Shown here: positions 12,359-53,231 of the stretch, one piece after another
How positions within the stretch are numbered: the first letter of the stretch is position 1
How the letters are laid out: each line of letters opens with the position of its first letter
From: Mariprofundus ferrooxydans PV-1
GTDB lineage: Bacteria > Pseudomonadota > Zetaproteobacteria > Mariprofundales > Mariprofundaceae
Reading direction: 5' to 3'
Length of the DNA: 64,000 nt
Assembly (NCBI RefSeq): GCF_000153765.1
Contig: NZ_DS022295.1
Location: forward strand, 752,887 to 816,886
The notes under the pieces: generated by a model
Databases searched by the model: none
What the model was told of the DNA's origin: nothing
Seen by the model: only the letters and a program-made list of their open reading frames with translations
Made by a program: the position numbers and the translations under genes

Positions 12359-12367
12359 CGAGAACAT
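12359..12367 (+). repeat. IS target-site duplication, right copy
   Basis: CGAGAACAT, identical to 11071-11079, directly after the right terminal inverted repeat of the IS. Confidence 0.85.
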
Positions 12368-27147: not shown

Positions 27148-27669
27148 TTACAAGCTGTTATATTGCCCGAATCCGCTGGTCCGAACTGTCCCTAAACTTT
27201 TCCCCGGCTTGGCCTCAGATTCTTTCGCGGTAGAATAGTTGATAGAAGAGACAATCCCTTTCTCATCCATATTAATAACAGGCGTATCCTTATACTGATC
27301 ATAAACCAGTTGCTCCGACTTGCCTGTTCCGGACAAGGTTATATTTGTTTTGCCCGGTTCTCCCCAGGACTTGAGCACATCCTGTTTGCTCATACCTACA
27401 GCGACTTTTCTGAATCTTATAAACTCGCTTGCCTGAGCGGCCGTAAACTGGCCATGACCAACTGTTGATGCATCCTCTTTTGAGTAGTCATGCAACTTTC
27501 GGTGCTCCACTTCCTCACCGGCCTTGCATGGGATATCCTGCCAGACAGGCGTATCAAATTTCCCCGGCCCCTTGCATTGATACATTTCGTCAGCCTTCGT
27601 AACCGGAAAACCGATGCATGACGCGAAAACGCCAACAATCACAGCCGATGCCAATCCCAACTTATTCAC
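27148..27669 (-). CDS. Exported DUF4124/SmpA-like small protein
   Basis: 173 residues from GTG 27669, which has AAGGAGGGG five bases upstream; the ATG five codons earlier overlaps that ribosome-binding site and is less likely. A signal peptide (about 1-25) is followed by a DUF4124-like MYQCKGPGKFDTPVWQDIPC segment and a BamE/SmpA-like GMSKQDVLKSWGEPGKTNIT motif. DUF4124 occurs in periplasmic proteins of unknown role. Monocistronic. Confidence 0.7.
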   Translation of the reverse strand: MNKLGLASAVIVGVFASCIGFPVTKADEMYQCKGPGKFDTPVWQDIPCKAGEEVEHRKLHDYSKEDASTVGHGQFTAAQASEFIRFRKVAVGMSKQDVLKSWGEPGKTNITLSGTGKSEQLVYDQYKDTPVINMDEKGIVSSINYSTAKESEAKPGKSLGTVRTSGFGQYNSL

Positions 27670-27772
27670 GATCCCCTCCTTCATACAGAAGCCCCTTGGA
27701 CGCGCCTAGTAAATTAGTGGCGATTCATACTGGACTACCCACATTTCTGTAACCCTTCCACCATAATGATTA

Positions 27773-28675
27773 TTAATACGATTGGATACCATGTTTTAAC
27801 AGGAGCCTTGGCAATACGTCATCCAGATTAATTACATCAGCATCATTCAATTGAATAAGTTTAAAATCATACTTCTCATATATTTCGATTTTGGTTTTCT
27901 TTCTGTGTAAATACTTAGAGTCATTCTCGTACCCCCAGTATTCGATATACACTTTCCCGCCGGGCAAATAGAAGTCGCAATATACTTCCTCTTCTACAGG
28001 TAACTTCCTTTCGTAGGCATGGACAATTTCAGCCATATATAGCCAATTATCAATTAACATCTCTGCCTTTGACCTGACATAATGGCCATCTGTACTACGG
28101 AATTTTGCCTCGAACTTATCTCTGAAACCGGATACATTGGAGCTCTTTTCCTGCAACTCTGTAGTGGAACCTTCGCTTTCCTGACCCTGTGTTTGCTTAA
28201 TAGAATCCAGAAGCGTCTTGTTCGTCACAATTGATTCAGGCCATGAAACATAAGGTACACCAGACCTGTTATTTTCAAGCTGAATACCTCCGACCTTTTC
28301 ACCTTGTTTTGTGAGTTCCCAGCCTTTCAGTCCTTTCTTGATCCAACCTAGTTCAGAAAAAATCAGGTTTATCTTCTGATTAGAGACATCAAAAGTCTTA
28401 CCCAGGGACGTTGCTGTAAGAATATTGCTCGCCTGCTTGGGCGAAGCGACATTTGAACCAATGCTTATTTTACTTTTTATTTCACTGGGCCAGACGATAT
28501 AGGTTCCGAACCGCTTATCGCTTTTATAATCCCCGCCTAATTGCTTACCGGCATCAGTCAGCTTTCTTTCACCGCCATTTTCTACAATCCAACCGTTTGC
28601 AACCAGGATGGCAAACAATTCTCGGGTTGTAGCTCCAAGCTCTTTCGCCAATGCTGAAGTCGAAATTAATTTCAT
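27773..28675 (-). CDS. Putative PD-(D/E)XK nuclease-like protein with N-terminal repeat domains
   Basis: 300 residues, preceded by GGAGGTG. The N-terminal 160 residues hold two related modules (SALAKELGATTRELFAILVANGWI and SLGKTFDVSNQKINLIFSELGWI), each a likely helix-turn-helix. The C-terminal third reads like a Vsr/DUF559-type nuclease: RSKAEMLIDNWL, YERKLPVEEEVYCDFYLP and YIEYWGYENDSKYLHRKKTK, giving candidate E-D-E-K active-site residues. Probably a defence or mobile-DNA gene. Composition is AT-richer than the core. Function inferred only. Confidence 0.55.
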   Translation of the reverse strand: MKLISTSALAKELGATTRELFAILVANGWIVENGGERKLTDAGKQLGGDYKSDKRFGTYIVWPSEIKSKISIGSNVASPKQASNILTATSLGKTFDVSNQKINLIFSELGWIKKGLKGWELTKQGEKVGGIQLENNRSGVPYVSWPESIVTNKTLLDSIKQTQGQESEGSTTELQEKSSNVSGFRDKFEAKFRSTDGHYVRSKAEMLIDNWLYMAEIVHAYERKLPVEEEVYCDFYLPGGKVYIEYWGYENDSKYLHRKKTKIEIYEKYDFKLIQLNDADVINLDDVLPRLLLKHGIQSY

Positions 28676-28837
28676 AGATTTTCACACCTCCGGCTCGCAG
28701 TATAGTCAGGGAAATAACAACCGATACCTTCGGGTGACTTGCGATATTTTTCGCCCATCAATCAGAACCAATACCAATTACGAGTCGGCAATCGACAATT
28801 GCCTGGCTCCATCATTTGGCAAGTTAAACCAACTCTC

Positions 28838-29863
28838 TCACGCCATTTCAGGCTTATACTTTAAAGTGACTCTGCACCTTGGATAACTCCGGCAGCCCCA
28901 AAATTCATTGCCTGCATTTTTACCCGAGCTAACTTTCTTCAGAGTCAGCTTAGTGTCGCACCGGGGACAAGTCGGCGTTGTATAGTCGCCCTCTGTAGCG
29001 ACTTGTAATAGTTTGCTCTGTATCTCGTCAGGCATCTCCAATATCGACTTAACCAGATCTTCCCCTGAAATCAGCAAAAGCTTTTTGCCTTTGGCAAAAG
29101 CCACTGCTTCTCGGGTATAAGAGCCTGTGTTCATGAATATCCCTGTAGAAACACCTTCGGCCGCCATAACCCCGAACAACTCCCGCACGGGCTTTACGCC
29201 GACCTTATACGCATTCCATGCCTTGCACTGAACAATTGCAAAAGGCTTGTCTGACTTATCTTTAAAAAGGTTTATATCAACACCACCGTCCGGGCCGATC
29301 TTGGTTGTTTCAGCCCTTCCTCCCTTTACCTCAAGATAGGCACGACACAACTCTTCAAAACGCTTCCATTCAATTTTCCATATCAAATCAAGGCTGATTG
29401 ATTGGGGCTTCTGCGGCTCATGATAACCCTCAGCCTCTCGCAACGACTCAAGCTCTTGCAAACCATCACTGGTTCCCGGCGACAATTGCCTCTCGTCAGC
29501 CGGAAACACTAGCTCTTTTCCAACCGGTTGCTGTTGCGCCCATGGATCTGGCGGCCCTGACCTGCCGGAAGGTTTCTTCACCTTCATAGATACCGGATAT
29601 ACTGGCGGATAGCTCTTTCTCGCTTTGTATGCACTTGTCGCAGACATTACGGTCGGGACTAAAAATATAAAAGCTACAAGCGGTGCAAAATTGGGAGCTG
29701 CAGTCAAAAGCCCACGCATTACTATGGACTGCGCATCAATTAAGGGGGGAATATATTTAATACCAAAGAACGCTACAACCATGACAACGGCGTTTACCTG
29801 CCAGGGTAGTTCAGCCATATCATCAATAAAGTTTGCCTTCTTTTTACGCCGTCTCGCTGCCAT
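28838..29863 (-). CDS. Membrane-anchored Mrr-type restriction endonuclease with zinc ribbon
   Basis: 341 residues from ATG 29863 (SD AGGGAG). Two hydrophobic segments (about 20-75) anchor the N-terminus. An Mrr catalytic domain follows: RFEELCRAYLEVKGG, then GPDGGVDINLF and IVQCKAW supply the D-Q/E-x-K active site. The C-terminus is a topoisomerase-type zinc ribbon with four cysteines (CPRCDTKL ... FWGCRSYPRC). Mrr enzymes cut methylated DNA. It lies next to the ICE attachment site, in accessory DNA. Confidence 0.82.
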   Translation of the reverse strand: MAARRRKKKANFIDDMAELPWQVNAVVMVVAFFGIKYIPPLIDAQSIVMRGLLTAAPNFAPLVAFIFLVPTVMSATSAYKARKSYPPVYPVSMKVKKPSGRSGPPDPWAQQQPVGKELVFPADERQLSPGTSDGLQELESLREAEGYHEPQKPQSISLDLIWKIEWKRFEELCRAYLEVKGGRAETTKIGPDGGVDINLFKDKSDKPFAIVQCKAWNAYKVGVKPVRELFGVMAAEGVSTGIFMNTGSYTREAVAFAKGKKLLLISGEDLVKSILEMPDEIQSKLLQVATEGDYTTPTCPRCDTKLTLKKVSSGKNAGNEFWGCRSYPRCRVTLKYKPEMA

Positions 29864-29956
29864 CCCCACTCCCTCAAATACAATGACTGGCGATTATAGC
29901 ACAAATATTCAAATATCTATTCTGCGTGAACGGTTAAGTCGGGAGGAGCCTAACGC

Positions 29957-29995
29957 GAAAGAGCCGCATGACATTAAGTCACGCGGCTCTTTCTT
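29957..29995 (-). terminator. Terminator downstream of the truncated tRNA gene
   Basis: Inverted repeat with arms AAAGAGCCGC and GCGGCTCTTT, starting three bases past the tRNA CCA end on the minus strand. Its position suggests it is the native terminator of the interrupted tRNA gene. Confidence 0.8.
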
Positions 29996-29997
29996 GT

Positions 29998-30043
29998 TGG
30001 TGGCGCTTCAGGGACTCGAACCCCGGGCACGCGGATTATGATC
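29998..30043 (-). tRNA. 3' half of tRNA-Met-like gene (CAT), ICE attachment site
   Basis: On the minus strand the sequence runs from an anticodon loop with CAT (30040-30038) through an intact T arm (GGGGTTCGAGTCCC-like) to an encoded CCA end. The 5' half is missing: bases upstream do not pair beyond three anticodon-stem positions and no D arm is present. This is the expected result of a tyrosine integrase inserting an element within a tRNA gene, with the chromosome on the left and the element on the right. The intact copy should lie beyond the right end of the window. tRNA-Ile2 (also CAT) is an alternative. Confidence 0.85.
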
Positions 30044-30182
30044 CCTTCTTCGGGCTCAACAATATCAATGCACGCTCATCTATCATATTAATAATAAAGG
30101 AATTTTGTTCCCGTTGATTCCCGCTCGATCCCTGTTATTCTGCAGCTTCACACACCGCACACACACCGCAGGAGAGCGTGGG

Positions 30183-31178
30183 ATGGCGATCCAGAAAAGA
30201 AAATGGAAGAACGGGCGAACAACTTACCGTGTCCAAGTGTATCATCGCGGAAAGGTAGTAGCTGACGCGACTTTTGATTTTCGTCGGGATGCGCAACTGT
30301 TCGAAGCCGAGGTGAAAACGAAGCTGCAAAGGGGCGACTTCGTGGATACTCGTCTGGCTGAACGAACGCTGTTCGGTGAAGCGTTGGAACGATATGCAGA
30401 GAATATCGTTCCGAGGAAAAAGGGAGCAAGACAAGAGATGTCTCGAGTGCGCACGCTGTCCCGCTCGTCACTGGTTCGCCTCCCTTTGTCGAAAATCAGA
30501 ACGCCAGATATCATCAAATATCGTGATAGCCGACTGAAAGAAGTTGGTCCGAACTCTGTTCGTTTGGAACTGGCAGTTATTTCCCACTTATTCACCGTTG
30601 CATCCAGAGACTGGGGCATGAACTACCTGAGCAACCCCGTCGCCCGTGGTGTGATGCCATCGGTCAAGCAGACTGCAAGGGATCGGCGCCTACAACCCGG
30701 TGAAGAAGATCAGCTGATGCAAGCTTGCAAAGAATACGGCGGTGTGATCGGCGACATTGTGATGTTCGCTTTAGAAACAGCCATGAGGCGCGCAGAAATT
30801 GCCAGTCTCCGATGGGAGGACATCCATGGCAACATCGCAAGACTACATGACACGAAGAATGGCGAACGCCGGGATGTTCCATTGTCTAGTCGCGCGCGTG
30901 AAATCATTCATCGCCGGGCAAAGGTACGATCATTGAATGATAAGCGGGTATTCGGCATTGCGCCAAACGGGATCTCGCAGGCGTTCTCACGCGTTTGCAA
31001 GCATGCTGGGATTGTAGATCTGCGTTTTCATGATTTGAGGCACGAAGCGACCAGCCGCTTATTCGAACGAGGGTTAAACCCAATGCAAGTTGCCTCAATT
31101 ACTGGACATAAAACACTCCAGATGCTCAAACGCTACACCCACCTCCGTGCTGAGGATCTAGTGGCCCTGCTGGACTAG
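30183..31178 (+). CDS. int: Tyrosine recombinase, ICE integrase
   Basis: 331 residues from ATG 30183 (AGGAG upstream); longer in-frame starts lack a ribosome-binding site. An N-terminal SAM-like core-binding domain (about 55-150) is followed by the catalytic domain: first Arg in ALETAMRRAEIASLRW (about residue 202), HxxR in FHDLRHE, and the nucleophilic Tyr in LKRYTHL (about 317). It lies about 140 bases from the tRNA 3' half, so it is the likely enzyme that integrates the element there. Confidence 0.93.
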   Translation: MAIQKRKWKNGRTTYRVQVYHRGKVVADATFDFRRDAQLFEAEVKTKLQRGDFVDTRLAERTLFGEALERYAENIVPRKKGARQEMSRVRTLSRSSLVRLPLSKIRTPDIIKYRDSRLKEVGPNSVRLELAVISHLFTVASRDWGMNYLSNPVARGVMPSVKQTARDRRLQPGEEDQLMQACKEYGGVIGDIVMFALETAMRRAEIASLRWEDIHGNIARLHDTKNGERRDVPLSSRAREIIHRRAKVRSLNDKRVFGIAPNGISQAFSRVCKHAGIVDLRFHDLRHEATSRLFERGLNPMQVASITGHKTLQMLKRYTHLRAEDLVALLD

Positions 31179-32379: not shown

Positions 32380-32889
32380 TTATCGCATTTCAGCGGCGGC
32401 CAGGATGCCCCGGATGATGTCCGTCGGTGTCGGTGGGCAGCCGTGAATGACAACATCTACGGGAATGATATCCGATACCGCGCCGGCGATCGCGTAGTTG
32501 TCCCTTCCGAATACGCCGCAGTTGACCGCGCAGTCGCCCATGGCCACCACCAGCTTCGGATCGGACGTGGCATTATAGGTCATCTCAAGCGCCTTCCTCA
32601 TATTCACCGAAACCGGGCCGGTCACCAGCAGCATATCGGCGAAACGCGGAGAGGCGGTGAAATGAATACCGAAGCGCTCGATATCGTAATAAGCATTGTT
32701 CGTGGCATGGATTTCCAGCTCGCAGCCGTTACAGGAGCCGGCATCCACGGCCCGGATAGTCAGCGAGCCCGCAAAATGATTGCGAATGACCGACTCAAGT
32801 CGTTTACCCATCACTTTGAACTGATCGCTTGCCGCCAGCGGTTCGGTGATGGTACCGATTCTGGTGATCTGCCTGAGGATTCCCAGCAT
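32380..32889 (-). CDS. HyfI/NuoB-like small subunit of Ehr-like complex
   Basis: 169 residues of the NADH dehydrogenase 20 kDa/hydrogenase small-subunit family. Four cysteines that ligate the proximal 4Fe-4S (N2-type) cluster are present: Cys53 and Cys56 in GSCNGCELE, Cys120 in GDCAVNCG and Cys151 in HGCPPTP. It would receive electrons close to the large subunit. Last gene of the operon, ten bases after hyfG. The stop lies close to the left 49-bp repeat. Confidence 0.9.
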   Translation of the reverse strand: MLGILRQITRIGTITEPLAASDQFKVMGKRLESVIRNHFAGSLTIRAVDAGSCNGCELEIHATNNAYYDIERFGIHFTASPRFADMLLVTGPVSVNMRKALEMTYNATSDPKLVVAMGDCAVNCGVFGRDNYAIAGAVSDIIPVDVVIHGCPPTPTDIIRGILAAAEMR

Positions 32890-32899
32890 ACTTGTCTCC

Positions 32900-34498
32900 C
32901 TACAGATCGTTGCCCGAATACGAACAGTTGAAGGATTTGTTGTTCAGCGGAAAGTCGGGCACCGGCACCTCCCGCACGGCCAGCTCCAGTCCCAGCCAGT
33001 TGATCACCGAGGGATCGCGTACGAAACAGCGGTCGATCTGCCCGCCTTCGCCGAAGCGCACCCATGCGGCGATCTCGCCACGCCAACCCTCGATGGCGGC
33101 AAAGCCGGACACGCCGGGCTCCGGCGGTAGCCAGTTCGCAACGATCGGACCTTCGGGCATCTTCTCCAGCAACTCCGAAATCAGGCGCGAGGACTCGGCA
33201 ATCTCCTCGAAGCGCACCCAGACCCGCGTGGCGACGTCGCCGAGCTTGCCTTGTGGTACATTGACTTCGAGTTCGTCATAGGGGGCATAGGCTTCCTCGA
33301 TGCGTTCATCCGGGTAGTGGCCAGACGCCCGGCCGACATAGCCGAGCAATCCGATGTCCTGTGCATCCTCGACCGGCACCATGCCCGAGCCAATCACACG
33401 CCCCTGAATCGAGGGGTGGTCGGCATAGATGGCACGCAGATGTTCGACCTCGTTGGCAATGGCAAGTGTCTGCTCCCGAAGCAGGCCGATTGCCCGCTCA
33501 CCGAGGTCGACGAGAACGCCGCCCGGGATCAGCGTGTTCATCAGCAGGCGATGACCGAATAGCTCCAGATGCAGGCGCGCCATGTCCTCGCGCAGACGGT
33601 GCATCTGATGGAGCATGAAGGCGAACGCGGCATCGTTGCAGACGGCGCCGATATCGCCGATATGGTTGGCGATACGTTCCCGCTCGCAAAGGATGGCGCG
33701 GATGAAGCTGGCGCGGCGAGGCACATCGATCTGGCCGGCGTATTCGCAGGCCTGGGCGAAGGCCCATGCATGCGCCACCGTGCTGTCGCCGGAGATGCGC
33801 GAAGCAACCTTGAGCCCTTCTTCCGCCGACTTGCTTTGCATGGCGCGCTCGATGCCCTTGTGCACGTAGCCTAGCCGCTCCTCCATGTTCAGGATATGTT
33901 CGCCGACGGCCAGAAAACGGAAATGTCCAGGCTCAATGATGCCGGCATGCACCGGCCCGACCGGAATTTCGTAAACGCCCTCGCTGCCCGAGCGCACATA
34001 GTCGTAATCGCCATGCGCCTCCGCCAGCAGGGGGGGGCGCGCGTCGAAATCCACGCGCAACGGATACGCCTCGCGCGGCCAGTGCTCATGCTTGATCCAC
34101 GGGCGCGGATCGGGGATATCGGTGATGTGGATCCCGAACATGTCCTGCATGTGTCGCTCCATGCGGCAGGCGGCGATGTAGTGCCCGCTGATGCTCGGCA
34201 GCTCGGGATTCTCCGCCGCCAGCGGCGTGCGCAGCAGCGTGTGCCGGTGTTCGGGGTGCGCGAACGCCATGTAGGCATACATAGCATGGGCGTCCCGATC
34301 GTGGCATCCCGCTTCGGCGCCCCAGAGTGCGACCAGCCGCATGCCGAGCCGGCGCGCCTCGCAGGCTGCGTGCGCCCAGTCCAGTCGGCGGATCTCCAGG
34401 CACGGCATGTGCTCCGGGCGGTGGTCGTTCAGCCAGATCGAGTGAATGTCGCAGTCGCCGAGGTGTTCGACAAACCAGGTATTGATCGGTTGCGTCAT
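32900..34498 (-). CDS. HyfG/NuoCD-like large subunit lacking NiFe ligands
   Basis: 532 residues: N-terminal NuoC-like part (about 1-160) fused to a NuoD/hydrogenase large-subunit domain. True group 4 hydrogenases have CxxC near both ends of the large subunit. Here the first site reads RISGDSTVAHAWAF (234-247) and the last SFNCSYSGNDL (522-532), so the four ligands are missing. It therefore probably cannot bind a NiFe centre, which places the complex with the energy-converting hydrogenase-related (Ehr) enzymes between hydrogenases and complex I. Substrate unknown. Start overlaps hyfF stop (ATGA). Confidence 0.88.
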   Translation of the reverse strand: MTQPINTWFVEHLGDCDIHSIWLNDHRPEHMPCLEIRRLDWAHAACEARRLGMRLVALWGAEAGCHDRDAHAMYAYMAFAHPEHRHTLLRTPLAAENPELPSISGHYIAACRMERHMQDMFGIHITDIPDPRPWIKHEHWPREAYPLRVDFDARPPLLAEAHGDYDYVRSGSEGVYEIPVGPVHAGIIEPGHFRFLAVGEHILNMEERLGYVHKGIERAMQSKSAEEGLKVASRISGDSTVAHAWAFAQACEYAGQIDVPRRASFIRAILCERERIANHIGDIGAVCNDAAFAFMLHQMHRLREDMARLHLELFGHRLLMNTLIPGGVLVDLGERAIGLLREQTLAIANEVEHLRAIYADHPSIQGRVIGSGMVPVEDAQDIGLLGYVGRASGHYPDERIEEAYAPYDELEVNVPQGKLGDVATRVWVRFEEIAESSRLISELLEKMPEGPIVANWLPPEPGVSGFAAIEGWRGEIAAWVRFGEGGQIDRCFVRDPSVINWLGLELAVREVPVPDFPLNNKSFNCSYSGNDL

Positions 34499-35970
34499 AC
34501 GCCGCCTCCTGCGGAAACCGCCGCGATCAGGGTCGCCGCCTGCTCATACCAGCCGGCCAGAAAGCCCGGGATCGACAGACCAAGCACCAATGCCAATGCC
34601 AGATGGATATAAACCGGCAGCATGTTGACCTGCACCGAAACCGCCTGCTCTGCGGTTTCACCATAGACCATCGGTTGCACGAAGCGCAGCAGACCAGCCA
34701 TCGCGATCAGCAGACCCAGCAGTAGTGGAATCGTTGTCCATGGGTTTGATTCGAGCGCGGCGGTGAACAGCAGGAACTCGCTGGTGAACACGCCGAACGG
34801 CGGGAAACCGGCAATGGCCACTGTGCCAATCATAAGCCCCCAGCCGATGCCGGGATGATGGCGAATCAACCCGCGTATTTCAGACATCTTCTGCGTGCGC
34901 ATGGCTTGCGCAGCATGGCCGACTGTGAAAAAGATGCCGGACTTGACCAGTGAATGGACGGTCATGTGCAGCAATGCGGCAACACCGGCCAGCTGGGTGC
35001 CGAGGCCGAAGGCGAAGGTCATCAGCCCCATGTGCTCGATCGAGGAGAAAGAGAACATGCGCTTGATGTCCCGCTGCCTGTGCAGGGAGAACGCGGCCAC
35101 GAACAGTGACAGTATGCCGAATGCCATCATCATATGTCCGGCCAGACCGGTTCCGGTTGCGCCATCTACCAGCATTTTCAGCCGCACCAGCGCATATAGT
35201 GCAAGATTAAGCAAGAGTCCGGAAAGCACGGCTGAGACCGGTGTCGGCCCCTCGCCGTGGGCATCCGGCAGCCAGGCATGCATCGGCGCAAGCCCCACCT
35301 TAGTGCCGTAGCCGACCATCAAAAAGCAGAAGGCAATCGTCATGACGAAGGGATCGAGCGCGCCGGCATGCTCATGCAACAGCGTCCAGGTCAGCGCTTC
35401 ATTACCGTGTCCGAGCACACTGGAGGAAGTGAAAAATACCAGTACTGTCCCGAACAGCGCCAGTGCGATGCCCATGCCGCAGAGAATAAAGTACTTCCAC
35501 GCAGCGGCGATTGAGGCTGGTGTTCGATATAGAGAAACCAGCAGTACCGTCGCTAATGTGGCCAGCTCCAGCGAAACCCATAGCACGCCGATATTGTTCG
35601 TGGTAAAGCCGAGCAACATGCCGAACTGGAAGAGTTGGAACATGCTGTGGTATAGCCTCATTTGGCGAGCATTGACACGGCCGGCGTCGAATTCGTGTCG
35701 CATATAGGGGGCGGAAAAGATGGCTGTGGTCATGCCGACGAATGCGGTCAGTGCAACCAGAAAAGCATTGTAGGCATCCAGATGGAACCAGCCATCCAGA
35801 GTGTTGAAACCACGCGCATTGAGCACCTGCATGGCAAGCCCCAGGCTGAACGTGAATGTGACCATGCCGATGGCGATATTGGCGCGAGCGGCCCATCGAG
35901 GGTGGCGGATCCCGGCGAGTAGAAGGCCGCCGAGTAGCGGGGTGAACAGCACGATGAGAAACAGATTCAT
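34495..35970 (-). CDS. HyfF/NuoN-type antiporter-like membrane subunit
   Basis: 491 residues, about 13-14 hydrophobic segments, in the complex I/Mrp antiporter-like subunit family. The LAPMHAWLPDAHGEGPTPVSAVLSGLLLNLALYALVR region carries the conserved Lys and His of the proton pathway. One of two such subunits in the cluster (with hyfB), so the complex likely pumps ions. Overlaps hyfE and hyfG by four bases each. Confidence 0.9.
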   Translation of the reverse strand: MNLFLIVLFTPLLGGLLLAGIRHPRWAARANIAIGMVTFTFSLGLAMQVLNARGFNTLDGWFHLDAYNAFLVALTAFVGMTTAIFSAPYMRHEFDAGRVNARQMRLYHSMFQLFQFGMLLGFTTNNIGVLWVSLELATLATVLLVSLYRTPASIAAAWKYFILCGMGIALALFGTVLVFFTSSSVLGHGNEALTWTLLHEHAGALDPFVMTIAFCFLMVGYGTKVGLAPMHAWLPDAHGEGPTPVSAVLSGLLLNLALYALVRLKMLVDGATGTGLAGHMMMAFGILSLFVAAFSLHRQRDIKRMFSFSSIEHMGLMTFAFGLGTQLAGVAALLHMTVHSLVKSGIFFTVGHAAQAMRTQKMSEIRGLIRHHPGIGWGLMIGTVAIAGFPPFGVFTSEFLLFTAALESNPWTTIPLLLGLLIAMAGLLRFVQPMVYGETAEQAVSVQVNMLPVYIHLALALVLGLSIPGFLAGWYEQAATLIAAVSAGGGV

Positions 35971-36644
35971 TCGTTCTCATCCTCCTGGATCAGGTGCGAC
36001 TGCATGATATCCACTTCCAGAGAGTCGAAAGTTTCTCTGATCTGAAAAAAGAATAGGCCGAAGATCAACGCGGCAATGAGTACATCGAAGGCGATACCAA
36101 TCTCCACCACCAGTGGCATGCCGTTGGTCGAACCGATGGCGGCGAAGAACAGTGCGTTCTCGACGGCCAGGAAACCGATCACCTGGGTGATGGCCTTTCT
36201 GCGCGTGATCATCATCAGCATGCCCAGTAGTACGCAGGCGGTGGCGATGGCCATCGAGTCGCGTGTCAAAAGCTCCGAAATTTTTTCGATGGGTTGAATA
36301 ATGTGAAACGAGAAGAGCGTGACGGCCAGCGCAATGAGCATGGTCAGCGGCATATTCATCAGTGGTTCGACCTCACGGTGGACATGCAGTTCCTTGATGA
36401 CGCGCCACAATAGCCATGGCAGCAGCAGTCCCTTGAGCAGAAAGGTCATCACCGCTGAGATATAAAGTTCATGATTGTCGGTGCCATAGGCGACCACAAC
36501 GGCAGTCACCGCCAGCAGCACGCCCTGCGCCGCGAACCAGTTGAGCACCGAGAGCATGCGGTGTTGCGCCAGCAGCGCAAAGGAGACTAACAGCATCAAG
36601 GCAGCCAAACTGTCGACCAGTTGTTGGAGAAATGCGCCGCTCAT
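35967..36644 (-). CDS. HyfE/NuoK-like membrane subunit
   Basis: 225 residues from ATG 36644, which overlaps the hyfC stop; the longer open frame upstream is a shadow of hyfC. Multiple membrane segments in the HyfE/HycP pattern (LKGLLLPWLLWRVIKELH, then AVENALFFAAIGSTNGMPLVVEIGIAFDVLIAA). HyfE is a NuoK-like small subunit of the membrane arm. Confidence 0.85.
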   Translation of the reverse strand: MSGAFLQQLVDSLAALMLLVSFALLAQHRMLSVLNWFAAQGVLLAVTAVVVAYGTDNHELYISAVMTFLLKGLLLPWLLWRVIKELHVHREVEPLMNMPLTMLIALAVTLFSFHIIQPIEKISELLTRDSMAIATACVLLGMLMMITRRKAITQVIGFLAVENALFFAAIGSTNGMPLVVEIGIAFDVLIAALIFGLFFFQIRETFDSLEVDIMQSHLIQEDENE

Positions 36645-37588
36645 GCGCCGACCTCCAGCATGTAGTGTGTGAGCAGCCCCAGAAAAGCGATGACAAACGC
36701 GCCTGAGAGGTATTCCGGCGCCTCGAATAGACGCATTTTTGCCAGCCCCGTTTCTGCCAGTGCCAGCATAAGCAACAAACCGAAGAGCTTGGCAACCCAC
36801 AGCGCCAACGCCAATGTCAGCGCTAAGATGCCGGCATCGGTTGCCATGCCCCAAGGCAGGAACAGATCGATGAGCAGTGTGGCGAACAGCAGTAGTTTAA
36901 TCATCGCGGCCCACTCCATCAGCGCTAGGTGACGCCCGGAATATTCCAGGATCATGGCTTCGTGGATCATCGTCAGTTCCAGATGCGTGGTCGGATTGTC
37001 GATCGGGATGCGTCCGTTCTCGGCGATGGCGATCATCACCATCGCCGCCAGCGCGAATGCCAGCGACGGTTGCAAGACCAACGGCGCATTTAGCGCGTGA
37101 TTGATCATTGTCGTCAGGTTGGTGCTGTGCGCGGAAAGTGAGAGTACGAATACGCTCATCAGCATGGCCGGCTCGGCTAGCGCTGAAAACGTCATTTCGC
37201 GGCTGGCACCCATGCCGCCGAATGCCGTACCGATGTCCATGCCGGCCAATGCAAGGAAGAAACGGGCCAGCGCCAGAAGTGCCACCAGCGCAATAACATC
37301 GGCAGTGAGCGACAAGGGGGTGTTGACCAGCACGGCTGGCACGCAGCTGGCCGCCATGACCGTGGCCGTGAAGACCACATAGGGAGCGAAGCGGAAAATC
37401 CACGAGGCATGTTCCGCCATGACCACTTCTTTGGCGATCAGCTTGCGCAGGTTCCGCCATGGCTGCATTACGCCCCCGCCGCGGCGGTTCTGCAGCCTGG
37501 CCTTGCATGTGGCCACGAAGCCTGCGGCAAGTGGTGCCAGTACGATCAGCAGTACTGCCTGCAGGAATTGGATGAGAAATGCGTTCAT
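36641..37588 (-). CDS. HyfC/NuoH-like membrane subunit
   Basis: 315 residues with about eight membrane segments of the NuoH/HycD family. RGGGVMQPWRNLRKLIAKE near 35-53, then ENGRIPIDNPTTHLELTMIHEAMILEYSGRHLALMEWA is the family's conserved acidic loop that links the quinone or substrate site to the membrane arm. Overlaps hyfB and hyfE. Confidence 0.9.
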   Translation of the reverse strand: MNAFLIQFLQAVLLIVLAPLAAGFVATCKARLQNRRGGGVMQPWRNLRKLIAKEVVMAEHASWIFRFAPYVVFTATVMAASCVPAVLVNTPLSLTADVIALVALLALARFFLALAGMDIGTAFGGMGASREMTFSALAEPAMLMSVFVLSLSAHSTNLTTMINHALNAPLVLQPSLAFALAAMVMIAIAENGRIPIDNPTTHLELTMIHEAMILEYSGRHLALMEWAAMIKLLLFATLLIDLFLPWGMATDAGILALTLALALWVAKLFGLLLMLALAETGLAKMRLFEAPEYLSGAFVIAFLGLLTHYMLEVGA

Positions 37589-39591
37589 GCGAACGCCACC
37601 AGCAGGAAGAGGATCGTGGCAAAGGTCCAGGCGAGATAGGCATGGATTCCGCGCTGATGTTCATGCCGAACCCGTTTGGCAAGGCCCAGCGTTAGCCGAG
37701 CCAGCGGCTGATAGAGATGTCTGACGGCCGGATCGCCAACGTGCACGGTATAACGAACCCTGCGCGTGAGAAGCTTGTGCGCCGGGCGCTCGACATGGAT
37801 ATGCTCCTCGGGCCGCAACACGCCGGCGAAGATGCGGCGCAACGGTTGCGAAAAAGCGGTCGCGTTGTACTGCATGCGGGCATGGATATGCGGATTGCCG
37901 CAGCTCCACAATGCGCCACGCCGAATGCGGCAACCCTTCGGGTGCAACCACCAGTAAACCAGACCACCGACGCCCAGCATGCCGGCCAGCGCCACAGGCG
38001 CCGAATAGGAAGCATGCGTCGCATCGACCGGAGTCAGCCAGAGCCAACCGTGCTCGTACAGATGCGCGCCCAGCGAGACATGGAGCAGGGAAGCCGGAAT
38101 GGCATCCATGAGCGGAATGAACATCACCGGCAGTAGGCCGAGCAGCAGACAAAGCAGCGCGGGAATCGCCATGCCGAGTTTCATCCAGCCATCCACTTCG
38201 TGCGCTCCGGCCACATGTTCACTGCGTGCATGCCCCAAAAAGACCACGCCGAATACCTTGACGAAACAGGCTGCGGCCAAGGCTCCCGCCAAGGCCAGCA
38301 TGGCGGCGGAAAACGGAACGATGGCGGTAAGCAGCGCACCACCCAGTTGCGGCGCCATCAGCGCGGTCTGGAAGGTCAGCCATTCCGACACGAAACCATT
38401 GAACGGTGGCAAGGCCGAGATCGAGACACAGGCAACGAGGAAGAACAACGCGGTGGCGGGCATGCGATGGATCAATCCTCCCATGGTTTCCATGTCGCGC
38501 GTGCCGGTGACATGCAGCACGGCGCCCGCCCCCATGAACAGGAGACCCTTGAACAGGGCATGATTGATCGTGTGATAAAGCCCGGCGATCAGTCCGAGCG
38601 CCGCGAGCAACGGGTGACCGAAATGCGCGAGCAGCATGCCCAGCCCCAGTCCGATCAGAATGATGCCGATGTTCTCGATCGAGTGGTAGGCCAAAAGCCG
38701 CTTCAGATCGTGTTGTTGCAGCGCGAAAAGCACGCCGGATACCGCAGAGGCGGAACCGGCGGTGAGCACCAGCGCACCCCACCACCACTGGAAATCGCCC
38801 GGGCCGATCAGATCCCAGACCACGCGGAGAAAACCGAAGACGGCCACTTTGAGCATGATGCCGCTCATCAGCGCGGAAACATTGCTGGGCGCGACCGGAT
38901 GGGCATCGGGCAGCCAGCCGTGCATCGGCACCACACCGGCCTTCGTGCCAAAACCAAAGGCCACAAGCAGAAACGCGGCCGTGGCCCAGAACGGGAAGAG
39001 GTGTGCTGCACGCATGACGGAAAACTCGAATGAACCGCTGGCCGCGTAGAGCACTGCGAAGCCGCCGAGAATCAGCAGCCCGGCCAGATGCGCCATCAGC
39101 AAATAGATGAAGCCTGCCTTGCGGTTCTCAAGACGCTCATGCTCAAACGTGACGAGGAAATAGGACGACACGCTCATCATCTCCCAGAACAGCATGAAGG
39201 TGAAGGCATCATCGGCGATTACCACACCCAGCATGCCGAGCACGAACAGCGGCAGGAACACGGCCAGCGCGCCCAGCCGTTTCTCTCCTTTAAGATAGCC
39301 TTGTGAATAAATGGCCACTGGCAGCAACAGAGTGCCAATGACCAGCAGAAAGAAGGCACTTAGCCCATCTACGCGGAAATGCATTGGCAGCCAGGGCAGG
39401 CCGAGGGGAAGAATCAACGAGGTTGGTTCAGTCAGTAGCCCTTGAATGCCGCCAATCATGGCTGATAAGCCGCTGATGGCCAGCAAAAGACAAAGTATGC
39501 TACGCCGTGCATCTCCTCCCAATGCGGGAGCTATAGCTGAGGCCAACAGAGGTGTTCCACAGGCGGTGATGGCAAGTGCCATCGCTGTCAT
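37585..39591 (-). CDS. HyfB/NuoL-type antiporter-like membrane subunit
   Basis: 668 residues, about 14-16 membrane segments. LPMHFRVDGLSAFFLL, then KAGVVPMHGWLPDAHPVAPSNVSALMSGIMLKVAVFG shows the antiporter-family channel signature with conserved Lys, and the extended C-terminus is typical of HyfB. First structural gene, overlapping the XRE/cupin regulator by four bases (ATGA), so regulator and complex are made together. Confidence 0.92.
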   Translation of the reverse strand: MTAMALAITACGTPLLASAIAPALGGDARRSILCLLLAISGLSAMIGGIQGLLTEPTSLILPLGLPWLPMHFRVDGLSAFFLLVIGTLLLPVAIYSQGYLKGEKRLGALAVFLPLFVLGMLGVVIADDAFTFMLFWEMMSVSSYFLVTFEHERLENRKAGFIYLLMAHLAGLLILGGFAVLYAASGSFEFSVMRAAHLFPFWATAAFLLVAFGFGTKAGVVPMHGWLPDAHPVAPSNVSALMSGIMLKVAVFGFLRVVWDLIGPGDFQWWWGALVLTAGSASAVSGVLFALQQHDLKRLLAYHSIENIGIILIGLGLGMLLAHFGHPLLAALGLIAGLYHTINHALFKGLLFMGAGAVLHVTGTRDMETMGGLIHRMPATALFFLVACVSISALPPFNGFVSEWLTFQTALMAPQLGGALLTAIVPFSAAMLALAGALAAACFVKVFGVVFLGHARSEHVAGAHEVDGWMKLGMAIPALLCLLLGLLPVMFIPLMDAIPASLLHVSLGAHLYEHGWLWLTPVDATHASYSAPVALAGMLGVGGLVYWWLHPKGCRIRRGALWSCGNPHIHARMQYNATAFSQPLRRIFAGVLRPEEHIHVERPAHKLLTRRVRYTVHVGDPAVRHLYQPLARLTLGLAKRVRHEHQRGIHAYLAWTFATILFLLVAFA

Positions 39592-40335: not shown

Positions 40336-40410
40336 ATGAGCGGATTTCCCCATTGCCCGGAATGCAATTCCGAATACATCTATGAAAATCGCGGTGCCCG
40401 GACTGATTAG
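40336..40410 (+). pseudogene. Truncated PhnA/YjdM-like gene, 5' fragment
   Basis: ATG 40336 follows a GAGGAG-like ribosome-binding site and encodes MSGFPHCPECNSEYIYENRG, the zinc-ribbon start of PhnA/YjdM proteins (normally about 110 residues). The likeness ends where the 49-bp repeat begins at 40396; the frame then stops after 24 residues. It marks the right edge of the inserted cargo and shows the cargo was cut out of a context where phnA lay divergent from the Ehr regulator. Confidence 0.75.
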
Positions 40411-40444
40411 CCCTTTTCATCCTTTTTCTCTGGCGGCTCGACAT
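40396..40444 (+). repeat. 49-bp direct repeat, right copy (within traG 3' end)
   Basis: Right copy of the repeat at 32299-32347, identical over 49 bases. It contains the true 3' end of traG and about 11 bases past the stop. Confidence 0.95.
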
Positions 40445-43331
40445 GCACGCCCGGCTCCTCGCCGCCAAGCCGACCCGGACTTCCCTTGAGCACGCCTACA
40501 TCGCGGGTCACATCCGGCGTTTCAAACAATGGCGTGCCCGGTACATGATGGTCTTTCAGCGTCACGCCATTGCCATCTGACATCCCGGCGATGAATCCTC
40601 CGGCCGCCTCAGGCAACTGATCCTTGATGTTTTGCCAGGTGTTGGCAGCAACACGTCCCCCTAAGTGGGTAGATTGCCCGTCCACATCGTCTTTGAGGCT
40701 CTGCAACTTTCCGGATACCTCAGACTGACCGTGTTCAACGGCCGTCTGATTGGCTTGGCTCCTACGTTCAGCGTCACTTATCTTCTGATCCACGTGCGGC
40801 AAGGCTGGTTGCTTCGAGGGATCCAAATCAGCCTCCCGCTGCTTGTGATCGACGGTGCCCGTCGGATCTGAAACACGGTGTCCGGGCTCGAGAGTCCCGG
40901 TCGCCTCCTGCATCTCCGCTTCCCAGCCGGCCACCCTGCCATCGCCATCAATGTCGATGTCCATACCGCTTCGGTGCATGACATATTCGGAGAACTCCTC
41001 GCTTGCGGCCAATTGCTCGATCTTGCCGCGGTTTGCCGTGTCATGCACATCGATACCCTTCGATGCGGCAAACTGCTCCAGATAATCGTTGGCTGTCGCT
41101 TGGATATCGCGTGAATGTGCTTTCCCGAATTCCTCGGCCTGGCGCAATTCTTCTGTTCGTCGATGGGCGGCGCTGTATTGCTCCTGCTCCTGAGAAAGAC
41201 GCGTGTGCGTATCCACAAGGCTCTTTCCAGCGTCCGTGCTGTGCATGGACGATGTATCGCGGCTTGCCGCCTCGGCCAAGCGGTTTTCCACCTGTTGGGC
41301 GTGCGTGAATGTCTGCGCTATCTTGCCGGTCGTGGCATCCTTGTAGGCTTCTTGAAGCTTGGAATCTGAAACGCCCTCAATTCTTGCCTGTGCGCTTACC
41401 TTCCCGCCCGTTCCAAACAACTCGAAGCCACCACTCATGGATGCGCTGGCGTTGGCCAGAATCCGGGCAGCCTGTTCATCGGTCAGGCCATGCTCCCTGG
41501 CAAAGTTGTGGGCAATTTCACGGCTACTCTGGAAGCTCTTCGTATCGCCGACAATACTGCTCACCTCTTTGCGTAGCGCGCTGCTCTCACTGTACCGGGC
41601 GGTCTCCACAAGTTGCTCCGCAGCCGCGCTCTGCGCGGTTTGTGCTACCATAACGTTCTTCGCATGCGTTCGCTCCACCGCCTCGGCATGATTTCGGGCA
41701 TTGGAAACATTGTGCATCAGCGCCTGCCTGCTCGATACTCCCACGCCGAGGTCGCTGTTGATCAGCTGGCTGGCCACACGCCCGCCAGGGCTGAAGTGGT
41801 CCGTAAAGGCGCCGTTGGAGTATTGCGCGCCCAGATTCATGTTCGGCGCCATCTGCTGCTGCATGACGGACTGGTTGCCGGCTTGCAGATTGCCGGTGCT
41901 GATATTGCCGCGTGCCATTTCGCCACCCATCTGGTTAGCCGCCTGGGTGGCTGGCATGAACAGCTGCTGCGCCAGTTGCGAGAAGGCGAATCCGCCTGCC
42001 GTCACAAGTCCCCAGGCCAAAAGCGGAATAGACAGTGCGAGGTATCCCGCGATGATCACCATGTCCGAATTCACCTGAGTCATGCCTTGCAAGCCCGCCA
42101 TGCTCGCGGGCGACAGAACGCCGTCTGCGATGCTTCGCGTGGCGGACTTGTCGTAGAGCGACACCACCATGTTCAGTATGGCGTACAGCACGGGCCATAG
42201 CTGAATCCAGATCATCATCTTGAGGTATGTGGCCAGCGCCTTGCCGGACACGGTGACCGGCAGTAGCAACGCCAGGAACACAACAAAGAATGTGCCATAG
42301 ATAATGACCTGGAAAACCGTCTGCATGATCGGCAGCGCCCGGGCGGCAATCTCGCCCATGGTTCGGTAGGCGCTCCGTTGCTGGCGTTCCGTGACGGTCA
42401 CGGCCCAAGCCGTCGCGGCGGCCGTGGCGTTTGCCATCGAAGCCACCTGGCCGTAGGAATCACGGAAGAAGTTTGCCAGCGCGGACTGTGTCACCATCTG
42501 ACTGGCCGTCGTAGAGATATTCGCCAGATAACCGTAAGTGGCGGGCAGCGCGGAAAGCAGACGCGCGCGCATTACGGCTGGCGCCTGGCCAGTGTTCCCG
42601 AACAAAGCGTTTGCGAACCTTCCGATCATGCTGTCCACCACGGGCGTGATGTCCGTTTTCAGACGCGTTGCCGCCTGCTTGCAGGTCAGAAATGTCGAGG
42701 CTCCGTTGCCAGGATCGTAGAACATTCCGCGAATGCCCGAATTGAGGGCCGGCGACAGGATCAGGGACAGAAGATTCGATGAATAGTAGATATCCTTCAT
42801 GGAATAGAAGCCATAGGCGACGTTGTAGTAAACGCACTGCCGGGCGTACTCGGTCAGGTTCTTGTTCAGCAATGGATCGTCAAACATGGCGTTGTTGATA
42901 GCCAACACCAGTTTGGAGCCGAAGACCATGCCGGTGTTGTGATACAGCATGTCGTTCGGCGGCGTGAATACCGCCTCGGTCATCGTCGTCAACCCGTCTC
43001 CGATGGTGGAGAACAGCCAGGCCGGCGCGGCCAGACCGAACGGAACATTGGCCACCACTCGGGTTGCAGCCGGATTCAACCGGTCCATGATGACCACGTT
43101 CATCTTCGGCACGAAGAAGATGTTGAACATCAGCATGAACATGACGAACCAGTGCCAGTTGATGGTGCGCCGCAACACGCCCATCTCGATCACCACCCAG
43201 AACAGAGACAATATGCCGAACAGACGAATCAACGTCAGATAGTCTCCTCCGCCCATCAAGGACGCGATTGCATTGAAGACCTCGTAGAGCGCCTCGCCGC
43301 CGCCGTAGGTGTATACCGTGTAGGAAGTCAT
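40407..43331 (-). CDS. traG: TraG, F-type conjugative transfer protein (mating-pair stabilisation)
   Basis: 974 residues, the usual size. An N-terminal TraG_N domain with several membrane segments (about 30-60, 330-370, 420-460) and a long hydrophilic, Gln/Ala-rich C-terminal region. In F, TraG acts in pilus assembly and, through its C-terminal part, in mating-pair stabilisation and entry exclusion. Last gene of the transfer operon; its 3' end is duplicated 8 kb away by the cargo insertion. Confidence 0.9.
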   Translation of the reverse strand: MTSYTVYTYGGGEALYEVFNAIASLMGGGDYLTLIRLFGILSLFWVVIEMGVLRRTINWHWFVMFMLMFNIFFVPKMNVVIMDRLNPAATRVVANVPFGLAAPAWLFSTIGDGLTTMTEAVFTPPNDMLYHNTGMVFGSKLVLAINNAMFDDPLLNKNLTEYARQCVYYNVAYGFYSMKDIYYSSNLLSLILSPALNSGIRGMFYDPGNGASTFLTCKQAATRLKTDITPVVDSMIGRFANALFGNTGQAPAVMRARLLSALPATYGYLANISTTASQMVTQSALANFFRDSYGQVASMANATAAATAWAVTVTERQQRSAYRTMGEIAARALPIMQTVFQVIIYGTFFVVFLALLLPVTVSGKALATYLKMMIWIQLWPVLYAILNMVVSLYDKSATRSIADGVLSPASMAGLQGMTQVNSDMVIIAGYLALSIPLLAWGLVTAGGFAFSQLAQQLFMPATQAANQMGGEMARGNISTGNLQAGNQSVMQQQMAPNMNLGAQYSNGAFTDHFSPGGRVASQLINSDLGVGVSSRQALMHNVSNARNHAEAVERTHAKNVMVAQTAQSAAAEQLVETARYSESSALRKEVSSIVGDTKSFQSSREIAHNFAREHGLTDEQAARILANASASMSGGFELFGTGGKVSAQARIEGVSDSKLQEAYKDATTGKIAQTFTHAQQVENRLAEAASRDTSSMHSTDAGKSLVDTHTRLSQEQEQYSAAHRRTEELRQAEEFGKAHSRDIQATANDYLEQFAASKGIDVHDTANRGKIEQLAASEEFSEYVMHRSGMDIDIDGDGRVAGWEAEMQEATGTLEPGHRVSDPTGTVDHKQREADLDPSKQPALPHVDQKISDAERRSQANQTAVEHGQSEVSGKLQSLKDDVDGQSTHLGGRVAANTWQNIKDQLPEAAGGFIAGMSDGNGVTLKDHHVPGTPLFETPDVTRDVGVLKGSPGRLGGEEPGVHVEPPEKKDEKG

Positions 43332-43343
43332 GTCATGCCGGCA

Positions 43344-44735
43344 TCAATGGGCGCGCGCATACTGGAAGACCTCCTGAAAATGCGGCGTCAGATTGCTGAT
43401 GAGCACCTGATCCAGGAACCTGGCCTTTTGCAGAATCTCCGTAGCCGCCATGAAATTCCTGTTCTTCGTGATTTCCCGGAACTCCCTGTTCCTGGAATCC
43501 ACGCTCGCCATCAGCGCTCCCCACAGCTCCTTTGGAGCCGTAGCCGCAACCTGTCTGGCAGAGTCCACCGCAGCCTTGTAAGCCCAGTCGAGATATGTGG
43601 CGACCATGTCGAACGCCACCGGTTCCACCAGCTCGTTTTCCACCTGAAGCGCGACCGAGGGCCCAAGCGCCACGGCCGTAGTCATCATCTTCAGCACGGG
43701 CAGTCTGCTGATGCCGATCAGCTTGCGCGTGTTGGCGGTGAGCTGCGCCGGTGCGCCGAATCGCTCGGAGGACAGCTTGGTGCGGATCTCATCCAGCGCC
43801 GCCTGCACCTGCTTGCGATAACCATCCAGAGGAATCTTCACCTTCGCCGGTTTCAGGCAATCCGTAGCAGTGTCGCACTTGTAGACCTCGGCCGCGGCGA
43901 CTCCGCCCGTGCCGTTGACCAGTTGCTCCAACTTCAACGCGGTGGGAGCCAGATAACGAACATCCGGCTGGCCTCCCGCGGCAGTCTCGATCACGTACGT
44001 GCCGACCAGAGACATCAGAAACTCCTTCATCGAGGCGGAAAGGCCCGTGTAGGTCTGTTTCTTCATGCCCGTCCAGAGCAGGTTCTTGCGGGCCATCTGT
44101 TGCTCCTTTTCCTGCGGCGTCAATGGCATTCCGTAGTAGATGTTCCGCCGGGCGCCGCCGCTCTGGCAATAACGCTCCGCATCCTTGTAGTCGGAAACGA
44201 TACCCCTGGCCATGGCGATCGCCTGGCAGCCCTTGGCGCTGTTCTCTGTGAGCACGCCGACCAGTCCGTTCACAGCGGTCTGCGCCGCATGACAGGAATT
44301 GATGGAGGCCTGGTTGATCTTCTGAATGACCTTTTGCAAATCCTGCATGGTGCTGTAGATCTGGGGTGCGAAGGTTTGCAGTGCCAGATTGAATGCGTAG
44401 CCGACGGCGTTGTTCCCGATGTTGCGCAGCATCTGCGTAAACTGGGCTTTGTTGATGAAGGAGAAGCCGCCAAGATAGAGATCGATGCCGCCGCATCCCT
44501 CGCTGATCGAGGGAGGCGTGATGGACAGCAACTGGTAGCTGCGCACCGGCGCCTTGATGAACATGCCGCCACCGGTGAAATAGCCACCGGCCTGGGACTG
44601 GTAGACGCCCGCAGGCGTGACGTTGCCGCTCATGCCCAGACTGGAGTAGAAGTTTCGCATGTCCTGATTGATTCCGGCGCTTGCCTCCGTGGCCAGGCAA
44701 GCCACTGCCAACAGGGCGCAAAGGATCCGCTTCAT
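43344..44735 (-). CDS. traH: TraH, F-type pilus assembly protein
   Basis: 463 residues from ATG 44735, preceded by GGAGGTGGGAA; the longer open frame upstream lies over traF and is not used. Signal peptide (about 1-20, ATEASA) then the TraH pattern: GGYFTGGGMFIKAPVRSYQLLSITPPSISEGCGGIDLYLGGFSFI. A coiled-coil-rich middle follows. Periplasmic/outer-membrane-associated assembly factor. Lies twelve bases from traG and overlaps traF. Confidence 0.93.
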   Translation of the reverse strand: MKRILCALLAVACLATEASAGINQDMRNFYSSLGMSGNVTPAGVYQSQAGGYFTGGGMFIKAPVRSYQLLSITPPSISEGCGGIDLYLGGFSFINKAQFTQMLRNIGNNAVGYAFNLALQTFAPQIYSTMQDLQKVIQKINQASINSCHAAQTAVNGLVGVLTENSAKGCQAIAMARGIVSDYKDAERYCQSGGARRNIYYGMPLTPQEKEQQMARKNLLWTGMKKQTYTGLSASMKEFLMSLVGTYVIETAAGGQPDVRYLAPTALKLEQLVNGTGGVAAAEVYKCDTATDCLKPAKVKIPLDGYRKQVQAALDEIRTKLSSERFGAPAQLTANTRKLIGISRLPVLKMMTTAVALGPSVALQVENELVEPVAFDMVATYLDWAYKAAVDSARQVAATAPKELWGALMASVDSRNREFREITKNRNFMAATEILQKARFLDQVLISNLTPHFQEVFQYARAH

Positions 44736-45514
44736 TTCCCACCTCCATCTTCGCGGGCGTTGACGATGGAGACGATCCGGCGCGCAAGCTCCGACTCGCT
44801 GATCATCCCGAATGCGACGGGAAACACCTCGCGGCGGCGTGGATTCACCAGGAACAACGCTGGAACGCTCTGTACGCCAAACTGCGAAGATATGCCGTGA
44901 TCCATCTCGGGCCGCGGATAGTCCGGCAAACCGATGCCGTCCTGACTGACAGGAATCACGCTGAAGCCGTGCTTTGCGGCGAAGTGGCGGAGCATGGGAG
45001 CCTCTGCATGGCAATACGGGCAGGTGGAGCGAAACATGAAGATCATCCCGTAACGCCCGGCGATCTCGTTCAGACGTTGCCTGTAGTGTGCGTCTTTCTC
45101 CTCGCGCCGGATCAACAACGCGCGTCCGTCGATCGGATGATCGATGGAATAGTCCAGCCCGGGATGAGTCCAGAGAACCCTTTGCCACGCATTGGCGAAG
45201 GCATCGGACTTGTCGTTCACCCAGTTTTGCAGGCGAATGTAGGCCACCATGTTCCTATCAGTGGGATGCATGACGGCCCTCTCCTTCAGCGACTTCAACT
45301 GCCTGCGGGCCTCCTCGATGGTCTTTGGTGGAAACGCATACGATTCTTCCCGCTGCCGTTTCTCCTGCTTCGGCGGCCTCTCATACCAAAACCAGCCGCG
45401 TTCATGATCGAAAAAAAACGATGCATCTGTGGTCTTCGCGTGAATCGCGCATGGCGGAAAGAGAATGGCGAACACCAGTACAATCCATTGCATCTGCCAC
45501 ACAGTCCGGTTCAT
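44732..45514 (-). CDS. traF: TraF, F-type thioredoxin-like assembly protein
   Basis: 260 residues: signal peptide (about 8-26) and a C-terminal thioredoxin-like domain with CPYC at residues 165-168. F TraF itself lacks CXXC in some plasmids but many TraF/TrbB-like homologues keep it. It would help fold Cys-rich TraU and TraN in the periplasm. Overlaps traH and traN by four bases. Confidence 0.9.
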   Translation of the reverse strand: MNRTVWQMQWIVLVFAILFPPCAIHAKTTDASFFFDHERGWFWYERPPKQEKRQREESYAFPPKTIEEARRQLKSLKERAVMHPTDRNMVAYIRLQNWVNDKSDAFANAWQRVLWTHPGLDYSIDHPIDGRALLIRREEKDAHYRQRLNEIAGRYGMIFMFRSTCPYCHAEAPMLRHFAAKHGFSVIPVSQDGIGLPDYPRPEMDHGISSQFGVQSVPALFLVNPRRREVFPVAFGMISESELARRIVSIVNAREDGGGK

Positions 45515-46500
45515 GGAGCGATCCTGCCGCCGTTCGGCGCGCCGGAGTTGTAGTAATTACGCATGCGCGTCTGGATACGATTGCCGAGCTTGGTTCCATT
45601 CATCGGCGTCATTCGGTTCATGATGTCCGAATAGAATTCGGACAGGTTCATCTTCGAAAAGTCCAGGCGCTGAAATTCTTGCGGTGTGAATCCGCGACAA
45701 TTGGGGGCTTGAGCGGCGCCCCAGCCGATGCCCAGCTGAGGGCGTCCCTGCTCCTGTATGATGCGCGCCAGTTTGGACGGGAAAACACACCAGACTTCCT
45801 GTATGCGCAGACAAATACCGAAAAGTCCTTTGGCGGCGCAGAAAGAACCGATGAAGTGCCCCGTAGCCGCCTGCCTGGCCTGGGCCAGCTTTTTCGCGCT
45901 TGCCGGGCACCCCTTGATGATATTTTTACCCCAGCCGGAAGGTGATGCCGTGCAGCAGTTCTTCGCTCCGAGGATGGTGCGGTTGCAATGTTCGGGGCCT
46001 CCCTTGAAGATACTGATCCCGCCGGAGGCGCTGGCCGAGGCGCCAGCCGCGGCCGCCGCCGCAAACCGCGACACGACATAGGCGAAATCGTTGGCCGGCG
46101 GCGTGTTGGTCTTGAAACAGGTGCCGGCCACGCACATGGCGGCGTTGCCGCACACTTGTCTTGTCACTGTCGTTCCCTTCTTGATGATGCACTGGTAGGT
46201 GTTTTGAAAGGTGGCGCATGAGCCATCCGGTTGCCTGCTGATGCACGCGCTGGATACCTGCTGACACCCTTTGGCAATCAGCGGCTTGCAAGTGTCCACC
46301 ATCGCGCCAGGGCATTGGTATCTGTCGCGCCAGCGCCAGCATGGACGCAGCACCTTTTGCCCGGCAATGAATCGAGGGGTCTTGTCCACGCAAACATGCG
46401 TTTTCCGCACGCAATTGGGATCCGTGCGAGGATTGATTGCAGCCTGCGCTTCCGAAACGCACGCAAGCACAAGGAACAGTCCCACAACGATTATCGGCAT
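45511..46500 (-). CDS. TraN-like Cys-rich protein, C-terminal partner
   Basis: 329 residues from ATG 46500 with its own signal peptide (MPIIVVGLFLVLACVSEAQA). More than 20 cysteines, including VRPCWRWRDRYQC-like and CFKTNTP segments found in the C-terminal half of TraN. In F a single TraN (602 residues) binds the recipient surface. Here the family is carried by two genes, this one following the N-terminal piece with a few bases of overlap. A separate signal peptide argues for a real second protein rather than a recent frameshift. Confidence 0.8.
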   Translation of the reverse strand: MPIIVVGLFLVLACVSEAQAAINPRTDPNCVRKTHVCVDKTPRFIAGQKVLRPCWRWRDRYQCPGAMVDTCKPLIAKGCQQVSSACISRQPDGSCATFQNTYQCIIKKGTTVTRQVCGNAAMCVAGTCFKTNTPPANDFAYVVSRFAAAAAAGASASASGGISIFKGGPEHCNRTILGAKNCCTASPSGWGKNIIKGCPASAKKLAQARQAATGHFIGSFCAAKGLFGICLRIQEVWCVFPSKLARIIQEQGRPQLGIGWGAAQAPNCRGFTPQEFQRLDFSKMNLSEFYSDIMNRMTPMNGTKLGNRIQTRMRNYYNSGAPNGGRIAP

Positions 46501-53223: not shown

Positions 53224-53231
53224 GGCGGCAA

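Follow-up and report, generated by a model that had tools for sequence, protein, structure and literature searches.

The displaced tRNA-Met 3′ half and the tyrosine integrase at the left end of a 69-kb ICE-type element in Mariprofundus ferrooxydans PV-1

The window, by which we mean the whole 64,000-nucleotide stretch of M. ferrooxydans PV-1 DNA analysed here, corresponds to positions 752887–816886 of contig C3 (G000:C3:752887-816886). On its chromosomal side lies a DUF27k gene (27148–27684, minus strand), which is the neighbour of the tRNA gene at the empty site described below, where a homologue sharing 63 % identity is found 190 bp from an intact tRNA in the congener G009. Two genes, one KilAC/winged-helix-like and the other for an Mrr-type restriction endonuclease (27773–29869), separate DUF27k from a hairpin terminator (29957–29993, minus strand; −32.1 kcal/mol, z −8.3), the pattern of which is common to relatives. 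To the right of this terminator is the 3′ half of a tRNA-Met gene (29997–30042, minus strand), a 46-bp segment that runs from the anticodon loop to the CCA plus one further nucleotide and reads ATCATAATCCGCGTGCCCGGGGTTCGAGTCCCTGAAGCGCCACCAA on the minus strand. ARAGORN found no complete tRNA in the window, and an Rfam scan of the window gave no match, as expected for half a tRNA. The left part of the element occupies the remainder (30043–64000), and includes a doubled 11-bp motif, TTCACACACCGCACACACACCG (30147–30168, plus strand), and a tyrosine integrase gene (30183–31178, plus strand), with a likely ATG start at 30183, 140 bp to the right of the tRNA fragment. The original prediction, of half a tRNA-Met gene at a chromosome-element junction with its terminator on the chromosomal side and a tyrosine integrase 140 bases away on the element side, thus describes the locus correctly. 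Farther to the left, a CHASE2/cyclase-like gene (10007–13361) is apparently split by an IS4-like transposase gene (11093–12244, minus strand), as judged from the list of open reading frames only.

When the 25-bp 3′ end of the tRNA was used to search the genome allowing up to three mismatches, exactly two copies were found, one in the window and the other at C3:852216–852240, and the same search of the control found none. Hence, the match between the two tRNA segments is not due to chance. The second copy is part of a full 77-nt tRNA-Met gene with the anticodon CAT (C3:852216–852292) that lies on the same strand as the fragment. This is the intact tRNA that was predicted to lie, together with the other end of the element, beyond the right edge of the window; by extension it starts at window position 99330, and the element, from one repeat to the other, is 69,332 bp long. 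The predicted second copy of the 46-bp sequence lies within this gene, with 45 of the 46 positions identical. The single mismatch is at window position 30027, which is position 47 of the tRNA, leaving an exact run of 30 bp (29997–30026). The name tRNA-Met is an ARAGORN call made from the CAT anticodon and covers elongator Met or Ile2 alike; pattern searches of the genome for other CAT tRNAs that bear on this distinction yielded no further candidates. There is no integrase beside the intact tRNA.

In order to establish which of the two halves is native, the sequences following the CCA were compared. The terminator after the intact tRNA at C3:852216–852292 is unrelated to the one after the fragment, and the pattern of the latter is found directly 3′ of an intact tRNA in G005, G006, G009 and G022, and 3′ of a fragment in G020. 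Since the native terminator stands beside the fragment and a different one is found at the intact gene, the fragment in the window is the displaced half of the host's own gene, and the 3′ half and the terminator of the working gene came from the element. An uninterrupted site was found in G009 (locus L118), where the order is cinA-pgpA-thiL-rsmB-FGE-DUF27k-terminator-tRNA-Met-rfaH-rfbB, so that, as also anticipated, a relative lacking the element does have the tRNA whole, with the same neighbours on either side. The KilAC-like and Mrr-type genes are both missing from this empty site. The left flank in the window is therefore no clean empty-site flank, and the pair was gained separately, immediately beyond the end of the element. 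Many further congeners (L115–L134) carry differing sequences with their own hairpins after tRNA-Met, suggesting various elements that each brought a terminator right after the CCA. Because sequences other than the native one follow the CCA of this tRNA in at least nine congeners, tRNA-Met looks like an integration hotspot.

The integrase is intact. It is 331 aa long, includes a PF00589 domain (E 7e-29), and the catalytic residues R202, K225, H283, R286, H309 and Y318 are invariant across 11 aligned relatives, features that make it a canonical tyrosine recombinase of the R-K-H-R-H-Y type. Near the ends of the element it is the only member of its family. The doubled motif between it and the tRNA fragment, a probable arm-type site for the integrase, has an 11-bp period (CACACACCGCACACACACCG) and has exactly two copies in the genome, one at either end of the element and both on the plus strand, the only copy besides that in the window being at C3:852128–852147. 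With the middle of the anticodon loop taken as zero, the arm units lie at +114/+125 at the integrase end and at −125/−114 at the right end. So exact a symmetry links the end that carries the integrase to the opposite end of the element. As other rearrangements can also yield half tRNAs, the fragment might instead have been an old duplication or pseudogene remnant that has nothing to do with integration. However, it is in the same orientation as the intact gene, its boundary runs exactly from the anticodon to the CCA, it has kept the native terminator and it adjoins an integrase, and the empty site in the congener and the matching arms contradict this explanation, to which we assign next to no probability.

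The symmetry of the arms also points to a crossover centred on the anticodon loop. The identity between fragment and intact tRNA ends, on the element side, with the anticodon-loop segment (30036–30042, minus strand; TTATGAT on the plus strand), which would be the 7-bp crossover region, and an identity block that ends at the anticodon arm is the mark of the anticodon-loop subclass of crossovers. In the relatives too the fragments begin at the anticodon arm (positions 27–33), and most have doubled motifs with an 11-bp period between the core and the integrase. For 54 co-oriented loci, the distances from the arm to the centre of the anticodon fall into steps of approximately 10.75 bp (resultant 0.61; none of 5000 simulations was as high, p < 2e-4), and ten loci with an inverted core gave a weaker signal (p about 0.04) with a similar phase. 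Equal arm distances are not a rule for the family, an idea refuted by L083 (+93/+104 and −161/−150) and by phage Ab31 (−126/−115 and +103/+114).

Alternatively, the crossover could lie in the T-arm or at the 3′ terminus of the tRNA, with the longer identity explained by a longer replacement sequence in attP. The mismatch at 30027 would then part host sequence from element sequence, with exact identity confined to 29997–30026, and the T at position 47 of all intact copies that were examined in relatives, with C only in the fragment, is compatible with this. We read the C at position 47 as decay of a displaced half that is no longer expressed, which it cannot prove, and as both accounts fit, the mismatch was set aside as not decisive for locating the crossover. 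The starting points of the fragments in the relatives, the symmetry of the arm units around the centre of the anticodon loop and the phasing of both the co-oriented and the inverted loci all argue against a T-arm crossover, as does the finding that, where the core is inverted, it is the anticodon and not the T-arm that the arm faces. We consider it improbable. Given the repeat boundaries, the arm-site symmetry and the fragments in the relatives, a crossover within the anticodon loop, as had been suggested, is well supported.

With high confidence, an ICE-type element of 69,332 bp has its left junction at this locus, and was inserted in tRNA-Met via its own tyrosine integrase, most likely at the anticodon loop. 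In the circular form, attP would consist of a duplicate tRNA-Met 3′ half between two doubled arm sites. The integrase of the element would have carried out recombination between attP and the tRNA-Met gene of the chromosome, the strands most likely being exchanged inside the 7-bp anticodon loop. This would have joined the 5′ half of the host gene to the 3′ half and the terminator brought by the element, giving the intact gene at C3:852216–852292, and the host's own 3′ half would have stayed with its terminator at the opposite end (29957–30042). As the tRNA core is inverted relative to the integrase when compared to most relatives, the integrase lies beside the displaced half. The element may still be able to excise.

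The original prediction took the position of the integrase beside the fragment as ordinary, and here it needs to be revised. The integrase in the window adjoins the displaced half rather than the rebuilt tRNA, and the core is inverted relative to it, whereas in the relatives, which were drawn from GTDB genomes and the order of the host, a tRNA that is mostly intact usually lies just upstream of the integrase gene and on the same strand. A tree was built from 97 integrases, 84 of which could be labelled by orientation, and the core is co-oriented with the integrase in 73 and inverted in 11. On this tree, at least eight changes of orientation are needed, a figure that is an estimate given the weak support for some of the deep branches and the great length of two rows. 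For the tRNA isotype, 39 changes are needed on the same tree, with at least 15 isotypes as labelled. Besides the window, inverted loci are L032, L040, L047, L056 (second integrase), L077, L083, L122 (in G020), L139 (minus-strand integrase), L144, L145 and L148. At the inverted loci the copy on the integrase side consists of a 3′ half only, lies on the opposite strand and always starts at the anticodon arm. Both ends are in one contig in L083, where the fragment is beside the integrase, an intact tRNA-Thr is approximately 5 kb away and doubled arms are present at both ends. L054 and L082 were initially taken as normal far ends and were dropped, as complete tRNA copies are found at both places. 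In L139 (G020:C1:246466-248960), two divergent integrases surround a single tRNA-Met 3′ half, of the initiator type by eye, and two elements in tandem, one of them co-oriented and the other inverted, apparently meet there.

Because the layout in the window is the opposite of that in most relatives, it could be argued that the integrase is a passenger derived from another element and that a different recombinase inserted the 69-kb element. A second, divergent frame resembling tyrosine recombinases does lie within the element (L004:4900-5832), with a weak match to phrog_1 (E 2e-6) and none to Pfam. This is very unlikely, in that the arm motif on the integrase side recurs just once in the genome, at the other end of the element and at the mirror distance, the intact tRNA has no integrase adjoining it, and the inverted layout accompanies related integrases elsewhere, L083 with its two ends included. 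We therefore retain the adjoining integrase as the probable agent. The near-palindromic anticodon stem, together with co-oriented arm sites, may have allowed the tRNA half to be captured either way. Whether the orientation of the attP core relative to the integrase is more generally labile in evolution, with at least eight flips during which the arms keep their place and helical register since the near-palindrome of the anticodon stem reads both ways, is in our judgement evenly balanced. If so, flipping of the core would be a route to new attachment sites, alongside swapping of the tRNA isotype.

The designation ICE, which formed part of the original prediction, holds for the origin of the element but less well for its present abilities. 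F-type conjugation genes for TraG, TraH, TraF, TraN, TrbC, TraU, TraC, TraB, TraK and TraE (40407–59749, minus strand) are present, together with a TraD of the TOL/SXT type, providing both the type IV secretion system and the coupling protein by which an ICE is recognized. The element also encodes a ParB of the PFGI-1 type and a ParA. Directly before TraD is a frame for a MobH/TraI-like relaxase (L004:6260-7018) that is 252 aa long and has matches in pieces that are far below the NCBIfam cut-offs, and a search of the genome for PF07514 gave nothing over the cut-off. The relaxase gene is apparently truncated and, because only 252 aa of MobH are present, self-transfer is doubtful; from its gene content, the ICE label seems fair for the origin of the element.

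The cargo includes a Hydrogenase-4-like (Hyf) complex adjoining the integrase gene (32380–39591). By eye, its large subunit is without the CxxC nickel-ligand motifs, having RISGDST and NCSYSG instead, and because these motifs are missing the complex may not be a hydrogenase. A defence cluster (L003:5112-18984, L004:10714-12264 and window 61240–62741) contains Gabija (GajA/GajB), type III restriction genes, an SNF2 helicase, a Fic protein and AbiE; its type III methyltransferase gene is split by a transposase frame. Close to the element's right-hand end, GGDEF and EAL frames lie end to end (L004:13109-15106), and may be one interrupted gene.

With the 69-kb ICE-type element delimited to the base at its two ends and the target tRNA kept working, the junction itself is a textbook case of a well-known mode of insertion, and it is the reversed placement of the integrase, recurring in the clade, that merits follow-up. 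A single clade that uses at least 15 tRNA isotypes and both core orientations, with arms phased to the anticodon centre, is a good system for the study of attachment-site change in tyrosine integrases, which bears on the spread of islands and on the design of integration tools.

In Islander, 3′ fragments are listed for 3760 islands and anticodon-centred sites (class 'A') for 2083 (PMC4383910). As in those class 'A' islands, an intact tDNA and a cognate 3′ fragment bracket an integrase-bearing island here: the fragment is in the same orientation, reaches the end of the tRNA and lies downstream of it, the interval of 69,332 bp is within the 2–200 kb range of the Islander definition, and the uninterrupted site is present in a relative (G009). 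There is no difference in kind, but for its own clade an integrase placed next to the fragment is uncommon. The integrases of the Pseudomonas phages YA3, vB_PaeP_Tr60_Ab31 and PAJU2 are 46–47 % identical to that in the window, and these phages also have a tRNA 3′ half in attP; Ab31 and PAJU2 both have co-oriented doubled arms on the two sides, at −126/−115 and +103/+114. Lysogen sequencing placed YA3, a close relative of Ab31 and PAJU2, in a tRNA-Ser gene (PMC7326022). In these phages the tRNA-Ser core is co-oriented with the integrase, whereas the core of the ICE-type element is inverted. Burkholderia phage Paku, with an integrase sharing 36 % identity, has the inverted layout in its own genome: upstream of the integrase gene, the minus strand carries a 3′ half, annotated there as a 65-nt tRNA-Ser. 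Acidithiobacillus integrases fall in the same clade (44–48 % identity) and the title of Castillo et al. 2018, as cited in PMC11476347, names an anticodon stem/loop segment as determining recombination of the ICEs, but the loci examined are all co-oriented. The Rci shufflon recombinase of IncI plasmids is approximately 42 % identical over residues 40–331; it has been placed near the P2-type integrases, inverts shufflon segments and is without an arm-binding domain (PMC8138268). Finally, doubled co-oriented motifs, proposed to be arm sites, flank the crossover on either side in the attP of HE-PICIs (PMC10111431), as they do here, but the motif is different and the spacing is 81 and 132 bp, compared to 119.5 and 119.5 in the element described here.
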